Shown here: in pieces, positions 1-7,878 of the stretch | Layout of the letters: each line of letters starts with the position of its first letter | Numbering within the stretch: position 1 is the stretch's first letter | Origin: JAGLHV01 sp023132075 [NCBI: bacterium] | GTDB taxonomy: Bacteria; CBDUZB01; JAGLHV01 | Reading direction: 5' to 3' | Assembly (NCBI GenBank): GCA_023132075.1 | Contig: JAGLYT010000069.1 | Location: 1 to 7,878 of the forward strand | DNA length: 7,878 bases | Program-made: the position numbers and the translations under genes | The notes under the pieces: generated by a model | Seen by the model: only the letters and a program-made list of their open reading frames with translations | What the model was told of the DNA's origin: nothing | Database searches by the model: none

Positions 1-3000
1 AATGGAATAAAGCCTTAAAACAAGCAGGTCTGGAAGAATACGAGGCAGAAACGATTGAGCAGATACTTCAAAATATAATACAAACCAAAAATGTCCCACA
101 AGATTTAATAAAAGAAATAAAAGAAGATAAAAAAAATCAGCGGGAGTTGGGACAGATAGCGAAAACAGTATTACATTTGTCGGATGATGAGGGCGAACAA
201 AAATTGGATGTAGTTAAGTTGGAAAGGACAATAAAATTATTGGAATTGTTAAATATGATCATAAATAAATTAGATAGTTTAAGCAGTGATGAACTTATAA
301 ATGCGGCAGAAGCGGTTAAAGCATTTTGCAATGCGGGATTGATTGATAAAGAAAAGGCAAAAGAGAAAATTTCTCCGTGTTTAGATAAGCTCATAATTAA
401 ATTAGATGATTTAGATGATATTGTATGTATGAATGCAGCACAATCACTCAAAGCGTTTGCTGAAGCAGGATTGATTGATAAAAAGAAATTTTCCCTATAT
501 TTAGATAAACTCAAAGCTAAATTACCAAATGCAGATAGTTATGTCTTTATAACAACTGCAAGAATACTTAAAGGACTTGCTGAAGCAGGATTGATTGATA
601 AGAAAGAAACAAGAAAGGAAATTTCTCCATATTTAGATAAACACATAAATAATTTTGTTACTTTGGGTCATTGGGAATTTCTATGGGTTGCAGAGGCGCT
701 TAATGTTCTTACCAAAACAGGGTTGATTGATAAAGAAGGGACAAAAAAGAAAATTTCCCTGTCTTTAGTTTTAGATAAACTTATGGCTGAATTAAATGGT
801 TCAAACAGGATTGGGAATATGAATGCAGCACAAGCGATTAAAATGTTTGTCGAAGCAGAGTTAATTGATAAGGAAAAAACAGGCGATAAAATTTTTTGGT
901 CTTTAGTTTCGGATAAACTTATGGCTGAGGTAGATGGTTCAAACAGGCTTGGGAAAATGAATGCAGCACAAACCATCAAAATGCTTGTCGAAGCAGAGTT
1001 AATTGATGAAAAGGAAACAGCAAAGAAAATTTCTCTATATTTAGATAAACTCATAGTTGAATTTGGTGATCGGAATAGTGCTGTATGTAGAGATATGACA
1101 GAAGCACTCAATGTGTTTGTTAAAGCAAAGTTGCTTGACAAAGAGAAAACAGCAGAGAAAATTTCTCCATATTTGGATGAACTCATAGTTAAATTGAATG
1201 ATCCACATAGCGATGAATATTTGAATGCATCAAAAGCAATTACGGCACTTGCCGAAGCAGGATTGGTTAATAAAGAGAAAACAGCAGAGAAAATTTCTCC
1301 ATATTTGGAACAACTCATAGTCAGATTAGATGATTCGGAAAGTGCTGTGTGTAAAGATACAGCAGAATCACTTAAAGCCTTTACCAAAGCAGGGTTGATT
1401 GATAAGGAAAAGACAGCTGAAAGAGTTCTTCCATATTTGTCTAAATTTATTACTGATTTAGATAGTTCCGACAAGTATACGCGTAGAAATGCAGCAAGTG
1501 TGATTAAAATGTTTGCCGAAACAGGATGGATTGAGATTGATTATAGTGTGGGAGACATAAAAGAATTATATAAGAACAAAGACGATGCACAGCTCAATAA
1601 TGTGTTTAGAGCGCTTATTATTAAAGCATACTTCCTTTTAAACATAAAAGGCAAATTATTGCCAAAAGATGCAGGATATATAGGGAGTCTCATAAAGAAG
1701 ACGGATGATATAGATGCTCTAAAAGTCATTCTTAATGTAATGGTGTATTTTACTTACCGGAAATCTCCGGAAGCTCAGGATTGGCTGGATAAACAGATGA
1801 GAAATATTTTGGAGAAATCTAAGCAAGAAGGGGAAGGATATATTTCCATAAGTGATAAGGAAAAATTAATTATCGGGTTTACCTCTAAAAGTGCCCGCCA
1901 GAGATCTTTAATGACGTTTGTAGTTAGAGAAAATATTGAACCTGAATTAAGAGTTTTTTGTATAAGGGAACTATCTAAAACAGGGATGATTGATAGTGAA
2001 TATTTGGAGATGTTTTATAAAGGAATAGAAGACAAACAAATGAAAAAACATCTAAAAATTATTTCTGATGTATATAATCAATTAAAAGATGAGATTTCTT
2101 CTGATTTTATACCACCTGTTATTTTAATCGAAATGGTAGAAAAAGGAGAGATAGATATAAAGACTTTAAAACAAAATTATAAAGGAATTAAAAAATTAGA
2201 AGAAACTAAAGATGTTACTGTAATTATTCGTGGATTAGCGAAAGACGATGAATTATTGCTTGCCTACTATTGTTTTAGTCGTCCGGACTTTATTTATCCC
2301 GGAGTAGTTTTTATGAGTTTTGAACGATTTAAAAAAATTATTGAGGATGCATATAATAATCTTTCTAAAGTGGATGAAAGCGTAATTAATGATATATTAA
2401 AAGATGCTTTTATTAAAGCCGGTGTATCTAAAAAAGAAGCGGAAGAAATAGCAGAAAGTTTAATAAAAGGTGGTCCGCCTTTACCGAAAAATTCAAAATA
2501 TTTAGATAAAAAAGGCAATTTTATTCCTCAGAAAATAGAATTGGGACAAAGAATGCCTGACAGAATCCCAGAGCTTAAGAAAGCAGAAGAAAGCTTTGAT
2601 TTGGCGAAAGAGAGTATAATAAAGATTCTCAAGATAAATTTTTTATTAAAGAGCATAAATAGAGGGCTGGAAAAAATAGTGGATGGAGAAAAAAGAGATA
2701 TTAAAGAAAAGTACGATACTATCTTAGAATCCTTGAGCAGTATAGGAGATATAACAGAAGTTTTTGAAGAACTTATTAAATTAAATAATCAAATTTATAC
2801 CGCTTCAGATATTGTAGTTGAAGAAAGATTAGAGAAAGATGTGAAAAGAATAATAAAGAAAGCGGATAAATTAAGATATTCTAATGTTATAATGAAAAAA
2901 ATAAAGGAAGATGGAACAGAAAGGCAGGATTTTAGTTTTGATAATATAAATATAGGATTATTAAGGAATGCTATGGAGAGGATGGTTAAAAAGTTTAATG

Positions 3001-6000
3001 CATATAAAAAAGGTAAAAAACTTATTGAATTAGAGGAAAGAGTATTGAAGAAAGAGAAGGATCCAAATTCGGAAGAAATAACAGCACAGGATATATTAAG
3101 ATTTATGTTCAGAGGTATTGAGGGAGAAGCGAATATTGAGAATAAGGGGCTTAGAGGAATATTTAATGAATCTTTGGGAGATTTGGTGGGAAGTTTCGGC
3201 AATTATGAAGTTATTTTTAGGGATGAAGGAGTAGATTTCTTCAGAGGTAGTGTGGTGGTATGGCTTGATTATGTAAATAAGTGGAATATATTTGAATCGC
3301 TAAAATTTTCAGATGGGGCACAATGTTGTAACAGTTCGGATCCAAAAATAAACAGTATTTATGGTGGGGGGATATACGATAGAAATGCTCATCGTTGGAT
3401 TTTAGATATGCCAACAGGATTTTTTCAAATAAGTACGGAGTCAAGAGGGGGGGAACATTTAGGTTGGTTAAAAGAGTGGATGGGATTAGATGAAGAAGGA
3501 TTACCCTTTGTTGGTTCAAATTATATTTATCTTAAATCCGGGTATCAGGTTGAAGAGCTTAGCGGTGCTCTTTGGGATAAAATAGAGGAGATATTTAATT
3601 CAATAAAAATATCAAAACTTGCCCAGGCGAGACCAGGACATCCAGCTACTAATTCTTCCCGTCCGCCCAGTGATTATAAGGAAGAATGGTTAAGTTTTAT
3701 TAGATTACAGAGTTTAAAAGATGGTATGCCTATTCAGGCAGATGTAAAATTCACAGGGAATGAACCAATCGAAGGTTCTTTTTTTGTTAAGAAATTAGAA
3801 GCGACCGTTTCTGAGGACAAATTAATGGCAGCTTTTGGCTATAATATAAAAACCTTAATACAGGTTGTCTTAAATATAACGGATGCAGTATTAAACCCGA
3901 TAAACATAATCAATCTGTTTTTAGGGGAGAAGAAGGAAGGAGAAGGAAAAAGAGAATACGAAGTAGAAGTCTCGGAAAAGATAAAAGAAATGATAATAAA
4001 AAACATTCCCCCGGAATTTTTAGAACAGGCAGGGGCAAAAAAAGTACAGGTAAGGGCAAGTACGAGAGAAGATTTGGTAAGTATGAAAGAAATGTGGGCA
4101 ATGGCGGGGTTTGCGAAACACCCTGATAAAGACGATACGTTGGTATTCTATATACATCAGGAATATTTAGATGAGTTAAAAGCATTGGGAACAGACAGAG
4201 ATAATATGCTTGCTGCTTTGGCGAGGCATGAGGTTTGGGAGTATAAATTAGTAAATATATATGGTATATCGCAAAATATAGCCCACCTGATTGTTTCTTC
4301 AAATATAAACAAAGATACGAATGAATGGATTAGAGAAATAAAAAAATCAGGGTTTAGCGAATCAGAAATTAGAGAATTTAAAAAAACAGAAACAGTGAAG
4401 GATATAATTACAAAGATAGCAAATTACAAGAATGTTCCAACAGAACTAATAAGTGAAATAAGAAAAGATAGAGTTTTTCAATGGGGGTTAGAATGGGTTG
4501 CAATGGATATTACAGAAGTAAGAGAAAAAATTCTTAATACCCAAGGTGGGGAAGCTCTGATGCATATAGCCGGTGAGGGAGGAAAAGAGTGTGTTCGTAA
4601 GATGCTTACCTGGCTTTGTAAAGATAAAAGATTAAAGATAATTGCTGAAAGAAAAATCGGGTTTGTGGATTGGAACAATGTTGTTTATGAAGCAATTAAT
4701 GGAAATGCCCTTGATAAACTTCTTGCTTGGTTTGGTCGAGATGATAGATTTGAGATAGTTGCTAAAGGTAAAGATAGTTTTAAAGATTGGCCGAGGTCTA
4801 TTTACAGGGCGAATACAAATAAAATACTTGATAAAATTCTCGGTTTGCTTGGAAATGAAAAAGTACTTAAGAAAATATCTGAGAGAGGAGCTTTGGATGA
4901 ATTAGTAGAGTTTTTAAGCATTACTGCTGCCAGGGATAAAGAACAAATAGATGAAATTTATATTAAAGAGATTTTAATTCGGCTAAATAAAAAAGAGGTA
5001 ATTAGTGATGAAGAATTGCGTTTACTAAATAAAGAACTAATTACTATTTCAAAGACAATTGAAGAAAATATAATAAAAGTAGAGGATCTCCTGGCAAAGT
5101 TATTAATGGAAGAGGTAACAGTTTCACAAACAAAGACAGAGATAGTAGATTTGCCCGGGCGGTTACCGTTACAGGTTAAAGAAGATGAACTTTCACCAAC
5201 TGATAAGATCAAGCTGCAAGTTCTAAGAAAAGTGTTTGCAAAAAAAGAAGTTACCGGTGATGATATTAATAATTATGAGAATATTATTTCAGAAAATGTG
5301 AAAACGCTGATAGAAAAGCAACGAAAGATTAAAACCCCACTTGAAATTTTAAAAGATTTGGCAAAAATAGAAACTACAGCTGAAACAATCAATGTTGTCT
5401 GCTACGTTTATAAAATGATGTATATTCGTATTTCTTTACAGCCAAAAGATTTTTTGCGGGGGGATAATAAGAAATTAAAATTAAAGATTATGGAGATATT
5501 GAGGGAAAACGGTTTATACAAAGACAAATTTTTAAAAGATGTTATAAAATATATTTTTAAGATGCAAGGTATTTGTTACGAATGCGGTGTTATGAACATT
5601 TTAAATGATGCAGAAAGTAGGCAAATCAATGAGAATTCCATAGGATTTATAATTAATACACTTAAAGAGGTTTATGAGGATGAAAGAACCGAGGATATTT
5701 ATATAAAAGAAAATGTCATTAAAACCTTACAAAGAATAGGAACTTATAGTAGGAAGGAATTTGCAGATATAACAATCAGTAAAGTTTTAGACGAGATAGG
5801 AGTTTCTGATAAGATAACTAAAATTCTTGAAGATCTTAATAAAACCGAAGAAAGTAGTTTTCTTAAACTGAAGATTATACGTTCTTTAATAAAAATGGGT
5901 CAAATTGAAAAAGATGAAGCACTTAGTCGGCTTAAAGATTTATTTAATAAGATTCACCATGACTTATTTGACGGTAAAGACATTAATAAAAGTGAGTATT

Positions 6001-7878
6001 CCTGTATGTTGGCGGAAATTGTTTATATTTGTGATAACGAAATTCTTCACATTTCGCAGGGTAAAGGGCTTCATTATTGGCTTTATAATACTTTAAAACT
6101 TTCTATTTTGAGATATATACCCACCCTCAAAGAAGCAAATGAATTGTTATCTATTCAGGAAACCGGAAATGAACCGATAGAGGTTGACATACAATATCCA
6201 AATAGAGACAAAAAGCTAAAAGATTATGTCAGGGGAATAATGACAATATTTGAAGAAGAACTTCTTTCTAAAAAGAATAGATTGACAGAAGAGGAGTTAA
6301 CAGAAATATACACGATAATTGGTGGACAAGCAGGGTTTAAAGACAAATCTGTATTAATATTAGATGAAGAGGAAGAGACAGATCTTTATAATATTTATAA
6401 CGATTTTAGTGTGGGAATATATGCGTTGGAAGAATTAAAGACAAAGTTATTTCTTTATGGAACATTAGCTCATGAGTATGTTCATAATATTCTACATACG
6501 AAATTTAATTTTTTCACTAAAGAGGGAGAAGATAGTGCAGCCATACATGAATTAATAGCAGATTTAGGAGAATCTGCTTTCTTCCACAAAAAATTAAGCA
6601 AAGAAGATGCAATTACGGCAATTAAAAGAGAAACAAAAGAATTGAAATATGGGATATTATGGAGACAGTATGAGAGTGAAAATAAGTCCACATTTATTGT
6701 TAATAAAAGAGATGAACATAAAGTTCCCAAAGCACAATTTTTCTGGATTCTTAAGGGATTAAGAGAAATTGGCGGAGAAGATATCGGAGATGTTGACTTT
6801 AGTAAATTATTTAATAATGCTTTGGAAATTATAGATAAAACTCCTAAAACAGATTATGATAATTTGACACTTAAAGAATTTACAGAAAGATTAATTAAAA
6901 GGTATTATGATATAGAGGTAACTGATGAAGCAATCACAGTAGAAAAAGCAGAGCAAGGTGTAACAGTGTTAACCTATAGAGAAATAAAAAACCTCATTAG
7001 AAAAATAATTGACTCCAAATATAGTGCAGGTGGAGATAATCAGCAGAAATTAAAAGAAATGACAGAGGTGCAGGATAAAATTCTTACCATCCGAGGTGGG
7101 GAAGTCCTAATGTATATAGCCGGTGAGGGAGGAGACGGGTGTTTTGAGAAAATGATTACATGGTTTAGTGTAGGCAATAGATTAAAAATAATTGCTGAAA
7201 GAAAAATCGGGTTTATGGATTGGAATAATGTTATTTATGAAGCAATTAATGGAAATGTCCTTGATAAAGTTCTTGATTTGTTTGGTAAAGATGATAAATT
7301 GGAGATAGTTGCCAAGGACAAAGATGGTTTTAACGACTGGTCGAGGTCTATTTACAAGGCGAATAGAAATAAAACACTTGATGAAATTATTAGTTTGCTT
7401 GAAAATGAGCGAATATTCAATCAAATATCGGAGAGAGGAATTTTAGGTGAATTGGTAGATCTTTTAAACATTGCTGCCGGTGAAGATGGGAAAATAGATG
7501 AAAATGCTATTAGGGCAATTTTAATTAAACTAGGTTTAGAGATTAAAGAAGAAGAACTATCGTTATCTGGATTTTCCGTTTTTGCGCGTAATTTTAAAAC
7601 CTTAATGCAGGTTGTCTTAAAGATAACGGATGCAGTATTAAATCCGATAAACATAATCAATATGTTCTTAGGGGAGAAGAAGGAAGGAGAAGAAAAAAGA
7701 GAATACGAATTTGACGTACTAAAAGAAGTAAGCGACGAAATAATAAAAAAGATACCGGAAGAATTTTTAGTACGGACAGGAATAAAAGAAGTACAAGTAA
7801 GAGGAACTACGAGGGAAGATTTGGTAAATACCGAAAAAATGTGGGCAATGGCCGGATTAGCCAAACATCCTGATAAAA
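1..7878 (+). CDS. Internal part of a giant multidomain protein, open at both ends
   Basis: One reading frame, with codons starting at base 3, runs through the window without a stop: 2,625 complete codons plus one trailing base. Neither a start nor a stop is present, so the true protein is longer than 2,625 residues. The sequence is Lys/Glu/Ile/Leu-rich, predicted mostly helical, and shows no obvious membrane segment; a signal peptide could lie upstream. Residue numbers used here are base/3. In order it holds a helical linker (1-46), ten 44-residue helical repeats (93-515), more solenoid (516-846), a charged helical stretch (847-1023), a Cys-containing compact domain (1057-1202), module A (1278-1433), a second linker (1442-1493), module B (1503-1661), a HEAT-like region (1662-2053), a zinc metallopeptidase-like domain (2054-2286), module B again (2353-2510) and module A again (2527 to the edge). 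Repeated modules and a single protease domain suggest a surface, secreted or predation-type giant protein like those known in Omnitrophota. That role is inferred. The reading frame itself is certain. Confidence 0.95.
3..140 (+). repeat. Helical linker L, copy 0 (follows an unseen module A)
   Basis: Residues 1-46 begin at a Trp and contain KQAGLEE, then NVPQDLIKEIKEDK. The same pattern recurs at 4326-4481: a Trp start, KKSGFSE, then NVPTELISEIRKDR, with about six extra residues between the two motifs. At 4326 the segment directly follows the HEVWE part of module A. Its presence at the very start of this window therefore suggests that another module A ends just upstream. Two short helices and a connector are the likely structure. 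Similarity is modest outside the NVPxxLIxEI core, so homology is probable rather than certain. From here to 278 the sequence continues as charged helix leading into the repeat array. Confidence 0.55.
279..1547 (+). repeat. Ten tandem ~44-residue helical-hairpin repeats (HEAT/ARM-like solenoid)
   Basis: Units start at 279, 411, 531, 663, 801, 939, 1071, 1203, 1335 and 1467, with lengths of 44, 40, 44, 46, 46, 44, 44, 44 and 44 residues; the tenth is truncated after its first helix at about 1547. Each unit has a first helix of the type NAAQxxKxFxEAGLIDK, then a second of the type EKTAEKISPYL followed by DKLIxKLDD. The strongest positions are the Ala pair, the Ala/Gly-Leu-Ile-Asp turn, and the Ile-Ser-Pro-Tyr-Leu of helix two. 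This is an alpha-alpha solenoid pattern like HEAT or ARM repeats, normally a protein-binding surface; I cannot assign a named family. Units 7 and 8 share a 38-base identical stretch, and units 4 and 5 share an unusual 46-residue form with an inserted S-L-V, so some units were copied recently. A similar hairpin recurs singly near 1965-2035 and 5857-5950. Confidence 0.9.
1548..2540 (+). other. Irregular helical solenoid region ending in a Pro/Gly-rich break
   Basis: Residues 516-846 of the giant protein are almost entirely amphipathic helix with no recognisable enzyme motif. Pieces still resemble the preceding repeats: RELSKTGMIDSEYLEMF (from 1965) and KDAFIKAGVSKKEAEEI (from about 2400) follow the same helix, Ala/Thr-Gly-hydrophobic turn, helix scheme. 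They may be diverged members of the same solenoid. The helical run is broken by GGPPLPKNSKYLDKKGNF (from 2469), a likely boundary before the next domain. No family is recognised. Confidence 0.5.
2541..3070 (+). other. Long charged helical, coiled-coil-like stretch
   Basis: Residues 847-1023 are dominated by Lys, Glu, Leu and Ile with few Gly or Pro. Examples are ELKKAEESFDLAKESI, the following KIVDGEKRDIKEKY, and EERLEKDVKRIIKKADK. The pattern fits long surface helices or helical bundles, possibly a spacer between the solenoid and the compact domain that follows. The heptad regularity was judged by eye only. No catalytic or binding motif is seen. Confidence 0.4.
3171..3606 (+). other. Compact alpha/beta-like domain with a Cys-Cys pair, possibly GNAT-like
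   Basis: Composition changes here: Trp, Gly, Tyr and Phe rise and the lysine-rich helices stop. Notable elements are FFRGSVVVWLDY, SDGAQCCNSSDP with adjacent cysteines at residues 1108-1109 (3324-3329), a strand-like WILDMPTGFFQISTES, GWLKEWMGLDEEGLPFVGSN, and a closing helix VEELSGALWDKIEEIF. Alternating strand-like and helix-like pieces after a Cys-bearing loop recall N-acetyltransferase-like (GNAT) folds seen in large proteins of candidate phyla. I do not see a certain acetyl-CoA-binding loop, so activity is unproven. The domain ends at a Pro/Ser linker. A fold assignment needs structure prediction; the existence of a separate folded domain is the firmer statement. Confidence 0.35.
3630..3773 (+). 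other. Pro/Ser linker and TGNEPIE segment
   Basis: RPGHPATNSSRPPSD (3630-3674) is a flexible Pro/Ser/Asn-rich linker, the clearest one in the window. It is followed by a short stretch ending in TGNEPIE (3753-3773). The same seven residues occur again at 6162-6182, just before the metallopeptidase domain, with differing third-position bases. The shared heptapeptide may mark the edge of a small beta-strand element that precedes folded modules. Confidence 0.45.
3834..4299 (+). repeat. Module A, copy 1, with HEVWE metal-site-like motif
   Basis: Residues 1278-1376 align without a gap to the end of the window at a constant offset of 3,747 bases; I count 69 of 99 identical residues. The most conserved parts are ITDAVLNPINIIN, FLGEKKEGE, TREDLV and MWAMAG followed by AKHPDK. 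The second half, present only here, reads LVFYIHQEYLDELKALG, then AALARHEVWEYK, then a short loop and AHLIVSS. HEVWE (residues 1409-1413) with a second His at 1428 (4284) looks like a metal-binding or degenerate peptidase helix (HExxE, not HExxH). A strand, helix, HExx-helix order resembles small zinc peptidases, but the second motif His is replaced by Glu, so catalysis is doubtful. I recall similar ALARHE..E motifs in Omnitrophota proteins; that is memory, not a search. Confidence 0.8.
4326..4481 (+). repeat. Helical linker L, copy 1, between modules A and B
   Basis: Residues 1442-1493 start at a Trp, carry IKKSGFSESEIREFK, and then NVPTELISEIRKDR. This matches the segment that opens the window (3-140), with about six residues more in the middle. 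Here it sits immediately between the HEVWE half of module A and module B, which defines it as the element following A. Two or three short helices are likely. No function is recognised. Confidence 0.55.
4509..4985 (+). repeat. Module B, copy 1: ankyrin-like 39-residue repeats
   Basis: This module of about 159 residues recurs at 7059-7532. Over the 138 residues I compared, about 90 are identical. Inside it are two units of exactly 39 residues: 4629-4745 (RLKIIAERKIGF, then DWNNVVYEAINGNALDKLLAWF) and 4746-4862 (RFEIVAKGKDSF, then DWPRSIYRANTNKILDKILGLL). They are flanked by a partial unit before (LMHIAGEGGKECVRKMLTWL) and one after (ISERGALDELVEFL). The helix, Ala-x-x-Gly/Asn-Asn, helix pattern resembles ankyrin repeats, which are usually protein-binding, but the classic TPLH motif is absent and the unit is longer than the usual 33. 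A separate solenoid type is equally possible. Confidence 0.75.
4986..6161 (+). other. HEAT-like helical region between module B and the peptidase domain
   Basis: Residues 1662-2053 are helical throughout. Recognisable helix pairs include ENVIKTLQRIGTYSRKEF (from about 5710) and LKIIRSLIKMGQIEKDEALS (from about 5869), the latter very like the 44-residue units at 279-1547. A short low-complexity stretch near 5100-5200 (VTVSQTKTEIVDLPGRLP) probably separates module B from this solenoid. One C-Y-E-C pair (5574-5585) could bind metal only with partners elsewhere; no second CxxC is visible. No enzyme motif is seen. Confidence 0.45.
6162..6860 (+). other. Gluzincin-like zinc metallopeptidase domain
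   Basis: The domain carries LAHEYVHNILH with the zinc-binding HExxH at residues 2157-2161 (6471-6485), then HELIAD with Glu 2183 (6549-6551) 22 residues after the second His. It ends with DEHKVPKAQFFWIL, His 2239 (6717-6719). This order matches the gluzincin clan, in which HExxH and a downstream Glu bind zinc. In thermolysin the motif NExxSD supplies that Glu, and a later His before a helix stabilises the transition state. Spacing is close to, but not the same as, thermolysin. A strand-like KSVLILDEEEE precedes the active-site helix, and FSKLFNNALEII resembles the C-terminal helices of such peptidases. All expected catalytic residues are present, so an active protease is likely. Family (M4-like or another gluzincin) and substrate are not determined. 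It lies between a HEAT-like solenoid and module B; self-processing of the giant chain is possible but speculative. Confidence 0.7.
7059..7532 (+). repeat. Module B, copy 2: ankyrin-like 39-residue repeats
   Basis: This is a second copy of the 4509-4985 module at a constant offset of 2,550 bases up to about 7475, with one single-residue gap near the end. The 39-residue units lie at 7179-7295 and 7296-7412. The first unit is 32 of 39 identical to its counterpart, the second 25 of 39. Exact nucleotide matches reach about 27 bases around 7185-7215, including synonymous positions, which points to a fairly recent duplication or gene conversion. Here B follows the peptidase domain and precedes module A, the reverse of the first occurrence. 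Confidence 0.8.
7581..7878 (+). repeat. Module A, copy 2, cut by the window edge
   Basis: Ninety-nine residues align without a gap to 3834-4130. They include ITDAVLNPINIIN, FLGEKKEGE, TREDLV and the MWAMAG end; 69 of 99 residues are identical. Both copies carry a 34-base all-purine tract (3923-3956 and 7670-7703) encoding the GEKKEGE-KRE part. The HEVWE half expected from copy 1 would fall just past the window end. The reading frame is still open here, so the protein continues. Confidence 0.85.

Follow-up and report, generated by a model that had tools for sequence, protein, structure and literature searches.

Giant bacterial genes have been reported as a puzzle of the Omnitrophota and some other groups (PMC10066038, PMC12057145, PMC13104272). 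In the parts of these reports available to us, the giant open reading frames (ORFs) of Omnitrophota are described as exceeding 20 kb, with few annotated domains and with transmembrane helices, an example being a 39,678-amino-acid (aa) protein in Ca. Velamenicoccus archaeovorus (PMC10066038). Surface attachment and polymer breakdown in predation have been proposed as their role (PMC10066038, PMC12057145), and later cutting of the proteins has been suggested (PMC13104272). Here we analyse a 7,878-bp contig of JAGLHV01 sp023132075 (JAGLYT010000069.1; the whole stretch is hereafter the window), which lies inside a giant gene that is very probably longer than 10,000 codons. The genome belongs to a candidate phylum represented in our set by three genomes of one genus, namely its own genome (G000) and two sister genomes (G001 and G002). 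We consider it about an even bet (probability roughly 0.5) that the window is a soluble stretch from the interior of this gene and that the encoded chain would serve as a multi-enzyme tether or coat of the cell envelope.

As far as the Omnitrophota giant ORFs are described in the parts available, this locus has in common with them uninterrupted frames (35.3 kb in the sibling contig C1), few recognisable domains, hydrophobic helices in sibling segments and a modular design. C1 exceeds 20 kb, whereas the window measures 7.9 kb and is cut at both ends; the window does show the paucity of annotated domains and the low conservation of that class. The locus differs in its three-genome phylum and in a spacer module, LGEKK/HExxE, that occurred in 2/386 genomes searched, both of this genus, and its likeness to V. 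archaeovorus is one of description only. A ~6,000-aa extracellular protein of Ca. Menyafoubacter, from a soda-lake lineage sibling to Omnitrophota/Elusimicrobia, is likewise large, has a signal peptide and comes from a small lineage on the PVC (Planctomycetes-Verrucomicrobia-Chlamydiae) side; the available part of that report describes it without a transmembrane helix, whereas sibling segments here are hydrophobic, again a comparison by description (PMC12057145).

Nonribosomal peptide synthetase (NRPS) and polyketide synthase (PKS) megasynthases and giant adhesins resemble the locus in size alone. No family reached the cut-off in Pfam or NCBIfam anywhere on the window (2,625 aa), which agrees with the earlier impression, from a sequence-only reading, that NRPS, PKS and adhesin hallmarks are missing; condensation, adenylation and ketosynthase domains were absent in both databases, and RTX or Ig-like/cadherin repeats in Pfam. 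That reading had favoured the giant proteins of Omnitrophota and related phyla. The class fits, as a shared N-terminal head sits on large frames (9/11 outside-phylum genomes); the phylum, with its three genomes, looks unlike a large one such as Omnitrophota. The class is therefore already known. What is added is a giant gene in a separate three-genome phylum with a start conserved in both sister genomes, the spacer module, and the shared head, which we do not claim as unreported in the literature; sharing of the head opens the origin and export of these proteins to testing.

A coding frame open across the whole contig

A single stop-free frame spanning the window, amid frequent stops in the other frames, had been noted beforehand and was confirmed:

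3 to 7877, + strand: single uninterrupted frame (frame +3), 2,625 codons, open at both contig ends

TAA, TAG and TGA each occurred zero times in its 2,625 codons of assembled sequence, compared with 268, 335, 185, 154 and 62 stops in the window's other five frames. The longest stop-free run in any frame of 500 simulated sequences with the dinucleotide make-up of the window was 227 aa. G was the most frequent base at codon position 1 in 14/14 window blocks (the last block being short). The ratio of nonsynonymous to synonymous substitution rates (dN/dS) was 0.21-0.41 in 10/10 pairs of five spacer-module copies (two from the window, two from other G000 contigs and one from G001), differences being mostly silent. 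Frame +3 is thus a real coding frame under selection.

Contig C356, from a 1.87-Mb bin (389 contigs, 86.7% complete; no 16S rRNA gene found), is coextensive with the window, therefore neither edge is a gene end. Each end sits within a copy of the spacer module, and what stops there is probably the assembly rather than the gene; the repeated module at both ends suggests a possible reason why assemblies of such genes fragment. Extension of the contig to a true start and stop, as previously proposed, failed on both sides. Among 40 candidates scored for each end, the best listed matches elsewhere in the bin shared 88% (5′) and 83% (3′) identity over >100 bases and none was exact. Nor was there an exact end-to-start overlap of 12-300 bases between eight own contigs (56 ordered pairs), and the window is therefore not extendable by overlap.

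Using the window and pieces of C168, C13 and G002:C178 as queries, we found at least seven G000 contigs, the window included, that carry one frame without a stop over their whole length (28,916 codons, 86,756 bp):

C356 (the window): 2,625 codons
C168: 3,569 codons
C141: 1,031 codons
C13: 4,548 codons
C301: 3,269 codons
C387: 2,105 codons
C1: 11,769 codons (35.3 kb, 0 stops, no N)

The earlier observation of a window wholly internal to a giant gene is accordingly true and was understated, as the window belongs to a giant-gene system, with C1 and the window not physically joined in the assembly. Hydrophobic segments, often paired, numbered 6 in C168, 13 in C13, 11 in C301 and 4 in C387, and there were none in C141 or in the window. 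C92 offers a candidate 3′ end: its frame enters from the 5′ contig edge, reaches a stop after 875 codons and resembles part of C13 (45% over 272 aa). The gene that follows the C92 frame looks PadR-like by eye. Also by eye, the middle of the C141 frame has the look of an Hsp90/GHKL-like ATPase (IELIANAVDA...IGRFGIGAFQ); Pfam gave nothing there.

Repeats, spacer module and peptidase-like motifs in the window

Within the frame, the following features were delimited (all on the + strand):

3 to 191, + strand: tail of spacer module M6 (aa 1-63), whose body was on no contig found
315 to 1517, + strand: nine helical-looking repeats of ~44 aa each, limits approximate
3393 to 3803, + strand: domain X (aa 1131-1267), directly before M1
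3804 to 4337, + strand: spacer module M1 (aa 1268-1445), a linker and then the HExxE region
4227 to 4241, + strand: HEVWE motif (HExxE; aa 1409), zincin-like with Glu replacing the second His
4506 to 5024, + strand: repeat R1 (aa 1502-1674)
6471 to 6563, + strand: HEYVH ... HELIAD (aa 2157-2187), HExxH then ExxxD
7056 to 7565, + strand: repeat R2 (aa 2352-2521), a copy of R1 directly before M2
7566 to 7877, + strand: spacer module M2, cut by the contig end

Our best guess is that the window encodes a soluble run of helical repeats and spacers and carries two zinc-peptidase-like motifs, its helicity being read from the sequence alone. With this qualification, the helical, shuffled-module design suspected earlier stands, given the nine repeats and the R1/R2 and M1/M2 pairs. 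The tandem-repeat units are 44-46 aa long; by their pattern they are HEAT/ARM-like, their spacing would suit such a repeat, and they may work like one, with no HEAT/ARM profile matching them in Pfam. One long helical-looking part lies between the nine repeats and domain X and another between R1 and the HEYVH region. R1 and R2 gave a dN/dS of 0.58, a weaker silent-site preference than that of the module copies. Domain X is weakly shared with the 5′ end of C141 (29% over 133 codons), where it also stands directly before a module. A search of PDB returned no chain matching the window at E 0.1.

The spacer module consists of a conserved linker (...TD.VLNP.N..N.FLGEKK...) followed by the HExxE region. 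In six linker copies from two genomes, the T-D, V-L-N-P and F-L-G-E-K-K stretches were invariant. Copies were found at M1, at the window 3′ end, in C141, in C168 (two, one truncated) and in G001. The M6 tail is 88% identical in DNA to that of the C141 module (169 bases) and 43% identical in protein to that of C168 (60 aa). A third genome with a match, G012 (24.6 bits, 41-genome search), was rejected, as its 493-aa frame looks unrelated and the profile fails to recover it. Scanning IMG/VR with the module gave no relative, searching PDB with its profile gave no matches, and its AlphaFold model was too poor for use (predicted local distance difference test (pLDDT), 46.6). Equating the HExxE module with the HELLE domain of C301, G001 and G002 was likewise rejected (hhalign E 0.074, probability 0.8%; E 0.049 for a random control stretch).

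Eight own-genome segments together contain five HExxH motifs, whereas 300 shuffles gave 0.27 on average and 2 at most. The pattern HEYVH...HELIAD is one that we take to be of the gluzincin type of zinc peptidases. Its region had no family match in Pfam, and the AlphaFold model of it had a pLDDT of 37.9, too poor for use.

The head conserved in sister genomes and beyond the phylum

In both sister genomes, the giant frames open with a signal peptide, recognised by eye, followed by a ~500-aa head, and the two heads share 83% identity over ~620 aa. The head-bearing frame of G002:C178 extends for at least 7,624 codons from its start, and C301 of G000 matches it from residue 1160 onward (49% over 1,830 aa). 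We infer that the gene of the window starts with this same signal-peptide head. Upstream of the head-bearing frame lies a signal-peptide-like gene (376 aa in G002, 360 aa in G001, 62% identical). Before the 376-aa gene, G002:C178 carries a second giant ORF (3040-15744; 4,235 codons) with a signal-peptide-like start and its own stop. The order is the same on G001:C386, where the visible part of the large frame matches the 3′ end of the G002 ORF (42% over 567 aa).

We further searched the 386 genomes for the head. Fourteen matched, comprising G001, G002, 11 genomes outside the phylum (E 1.8e-28 or better, 10 families) and one doubtful genome, G342, which was not counted among the 11 (E 7.5e-4, two stops inside). 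Here and in the survey of the G230 phylum below, the heads per genome are lower bounds, as only part of the candidates was scored in several genomes. In 9/11 outside-phylum genomes, the head stood on a frame of at least 1,000 codons; among the matches listed, G028 and G077 had small head frames of 575 and 607, and the latter match contains two stops. Five head-bearing frames, from five genomes of four families, proved free of N: two with both ends closed (10,690 and 7,037 codons) and three that run off their contigs (10,168, 7,325 and 6,657 codons). The longest listed head-bearing frame was discarded, as 24,001/24,620 of its positions are masked. In the G230 phylum, 9/44 genomes carry heads, on frames listed at up to 13,907 aa with masking unchecked, and giant genes may form large families there. 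Some genomes of this phylum list up to 45 head matches, with some genes counted twice.

When 28 heads of 13 genomes were aligned, after removal of one duplicate locus, D90, H92, Q98, E120, E157, G171 and E173 proved invariant and H504 nearly so. This conserved signature (D-x-H, Q, E, GGFH) gives the head the look of an enzyme site. None of five head sequences had a family at cut-off in Pfam or NCBIfam. The best PDB match was at E 0.22 with a two-row head profile; a 28-row profile gave 23 matches up to E 10, the best at E 0.0008, which were mostly helical proteins of the EF-hand type and were taken as chance. The head may resemble EreA/TIKI/ChaN-type enzymes.

Proposed order of the pieces and possible roles of the chain

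A contig of G001 (C105, L024; 3,422 bp) may link the pieces. It is wholly open, its aa 1-193 are 76% identical to C1 aa 10,532-10,724 and its aa 181-698 are 77% identical to C1 aa 11,217-11,738, and the frame runs on into a module (aa 1048-1140, 70% to window aa 2525-2614). By this comparison, C1 ends a few hundred residues before a module. The 3′ end of C141 also matches C1 aa 493-534 (62% over 42 aa). The simplest order would thus be C141 - C1 - a missing short contig - the window.

Pfam matches outside the window were GH15 (2e-47), GH130 (3e-35), alpha/beta hydrolase, F420_oxidored, an N-terminal fragment of iPGM and, below cut-off, GNAT; methyltransferases and parts of SecA-like ATPases were also found in these segments. 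The iPGM_N piece (1e-13), a part of phosphoglycerate mutase, occupies aa 1-48 of the C13 frame (L045) and is cut by the contig end. The matching contig G001:C396 looks phosphoglucose-isomerase-like by eye in its 5′ part, where Pfam gave nothing.

In the reading that we prefer, the head would direct the chain to the membrane and the paired hydrophobic helices of the sibling segments would anchor it there. Enzyme domains (GH15, GH130, alpha/beta hydrolase, methyltransferases, parts of a SecA-like ATPase and the zinc-peptidase-like sites) would hang between the anchors, connected by helical repeats and LGEKK spacer modules. The chain would act at the cell envelope, possibly cut into pieces as a polyprotein, and would bind and break down polymers or neighbouring cells.

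Several observations weigh against this proposal. On no contig is the window physically continuous with a gene start or stop or with a hydrophobic hairpin, and the order given above was drawn up because of orthology and of module ends without a partner. C1 aa 10,725-11,216 (~490 aa) have no counterpart in L024, and collinearity of the two is therefore incomplete. Among the 386 genomes, the searches recovered no head from G000 and no module from G002 (97% complete), the latter making the module young, easily lost or hidden in a gap. HExxE is not clearly enriched (7, against a mean of 3.11 and a maximum of 8 in shuffles), and cytosolic-type enzymes such as the iPGM fragment and the methyltransferases are ill-suited to an outside role. 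Cleavage of the chain is unsupported, as signal-peptidase-like AxA stood at 14/88 C ends and 13/88 N ends of the helices, a negative result. A stricter cleavage motif, picked post hoc, with six occurrences, each between two hydrophobic stretches, was dropped after this unbiased AxA null. Finally, the two consecutive large genes of G002 (4,235 and at least 7,624 codons), in the same order in G001, mean that the pieces in G000 may derive from two or more genes.

This last point leads to the alternative of several large genes (~2,600-12,000 codons) in place of one, with that of the window perhaps little longer than the window itself. The stop-terminated frame on C92 and the lack of a contig overlapping the window speak for it as well. 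We consider it quite unlikely, given seven contigs (86.8 kb) without an in-frame stop, window edges that fall inside module copies, modules being mid-frame wherever a copy was seen, and the in-frame passage in L024 from C1-like sequence to a module. A chimeric contig or a reassigned stop codon could be imagined for so fragmented a bin; such an artefact is highly improbable, since all three stop codons are absent from a frame whose alternatives hold 62-335, the separate bin G001 has the same module in an open frame, and the dN/dS values point to selection.

The remaining alternatives concern what the chain does. If the chain stayed intact on the cell surface and served as a giant adhesin or predation protein, binding and digesting prey or host cells as proposed for V. 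archaeovorus in the parts of the Omnitrophota reports available to us (PMC10066038, PMC12057145), this would account for the signal peptide on the conserved head and for the glycosidase and peptidase-like domains. Such a role seems doubtful, as the Pfam matches listed for the scanned segments (C92 left out) include no adhesin family, cytosolic-type enzymes and hydrophobic hairpins are spread along the chain, and the window itself shows neither a secretion nor a surface feature. The opposite arrangement, a mostly cytoplasmic, hairpin-anchored scaffold or store that keeps metabolic enzymes together, is suggested by the iPGM_N fragment, the methyltransferases, F420_oxidored, the alpha/beta hydrolase, the SecA-like parts and the absence of hydrophobic segments from the window. 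The conserved gene start carries a signal peptide, however, and glycosidases that act on polymers are often extracellular, which makes an internal scaffold unlikely. The envelope tether or coat remains our preferred reading. More tentatively, the giant genes of several candidate phyla may share an ancestry in which a ~500-aa secreted head was repeatedly extended in frame by enzyme domains, hairpins and lineage-specific spacers, until polyproteins of as many as tens of thousands of residues arose. The window would then be the spacer-rich middle of one of ~30,000 codons, whose zinc-peptidase-like domains may cut the chain. Small head-only frames (523 and 575 aa, closed at both ends) are noted in connection with this possibility.

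Elsewhere in the G000 bin, contig C363 carries genes of ordinary length, among which a LamG-like/FlgD-like tail and an outer-membrane-type protein were recognised by eye.
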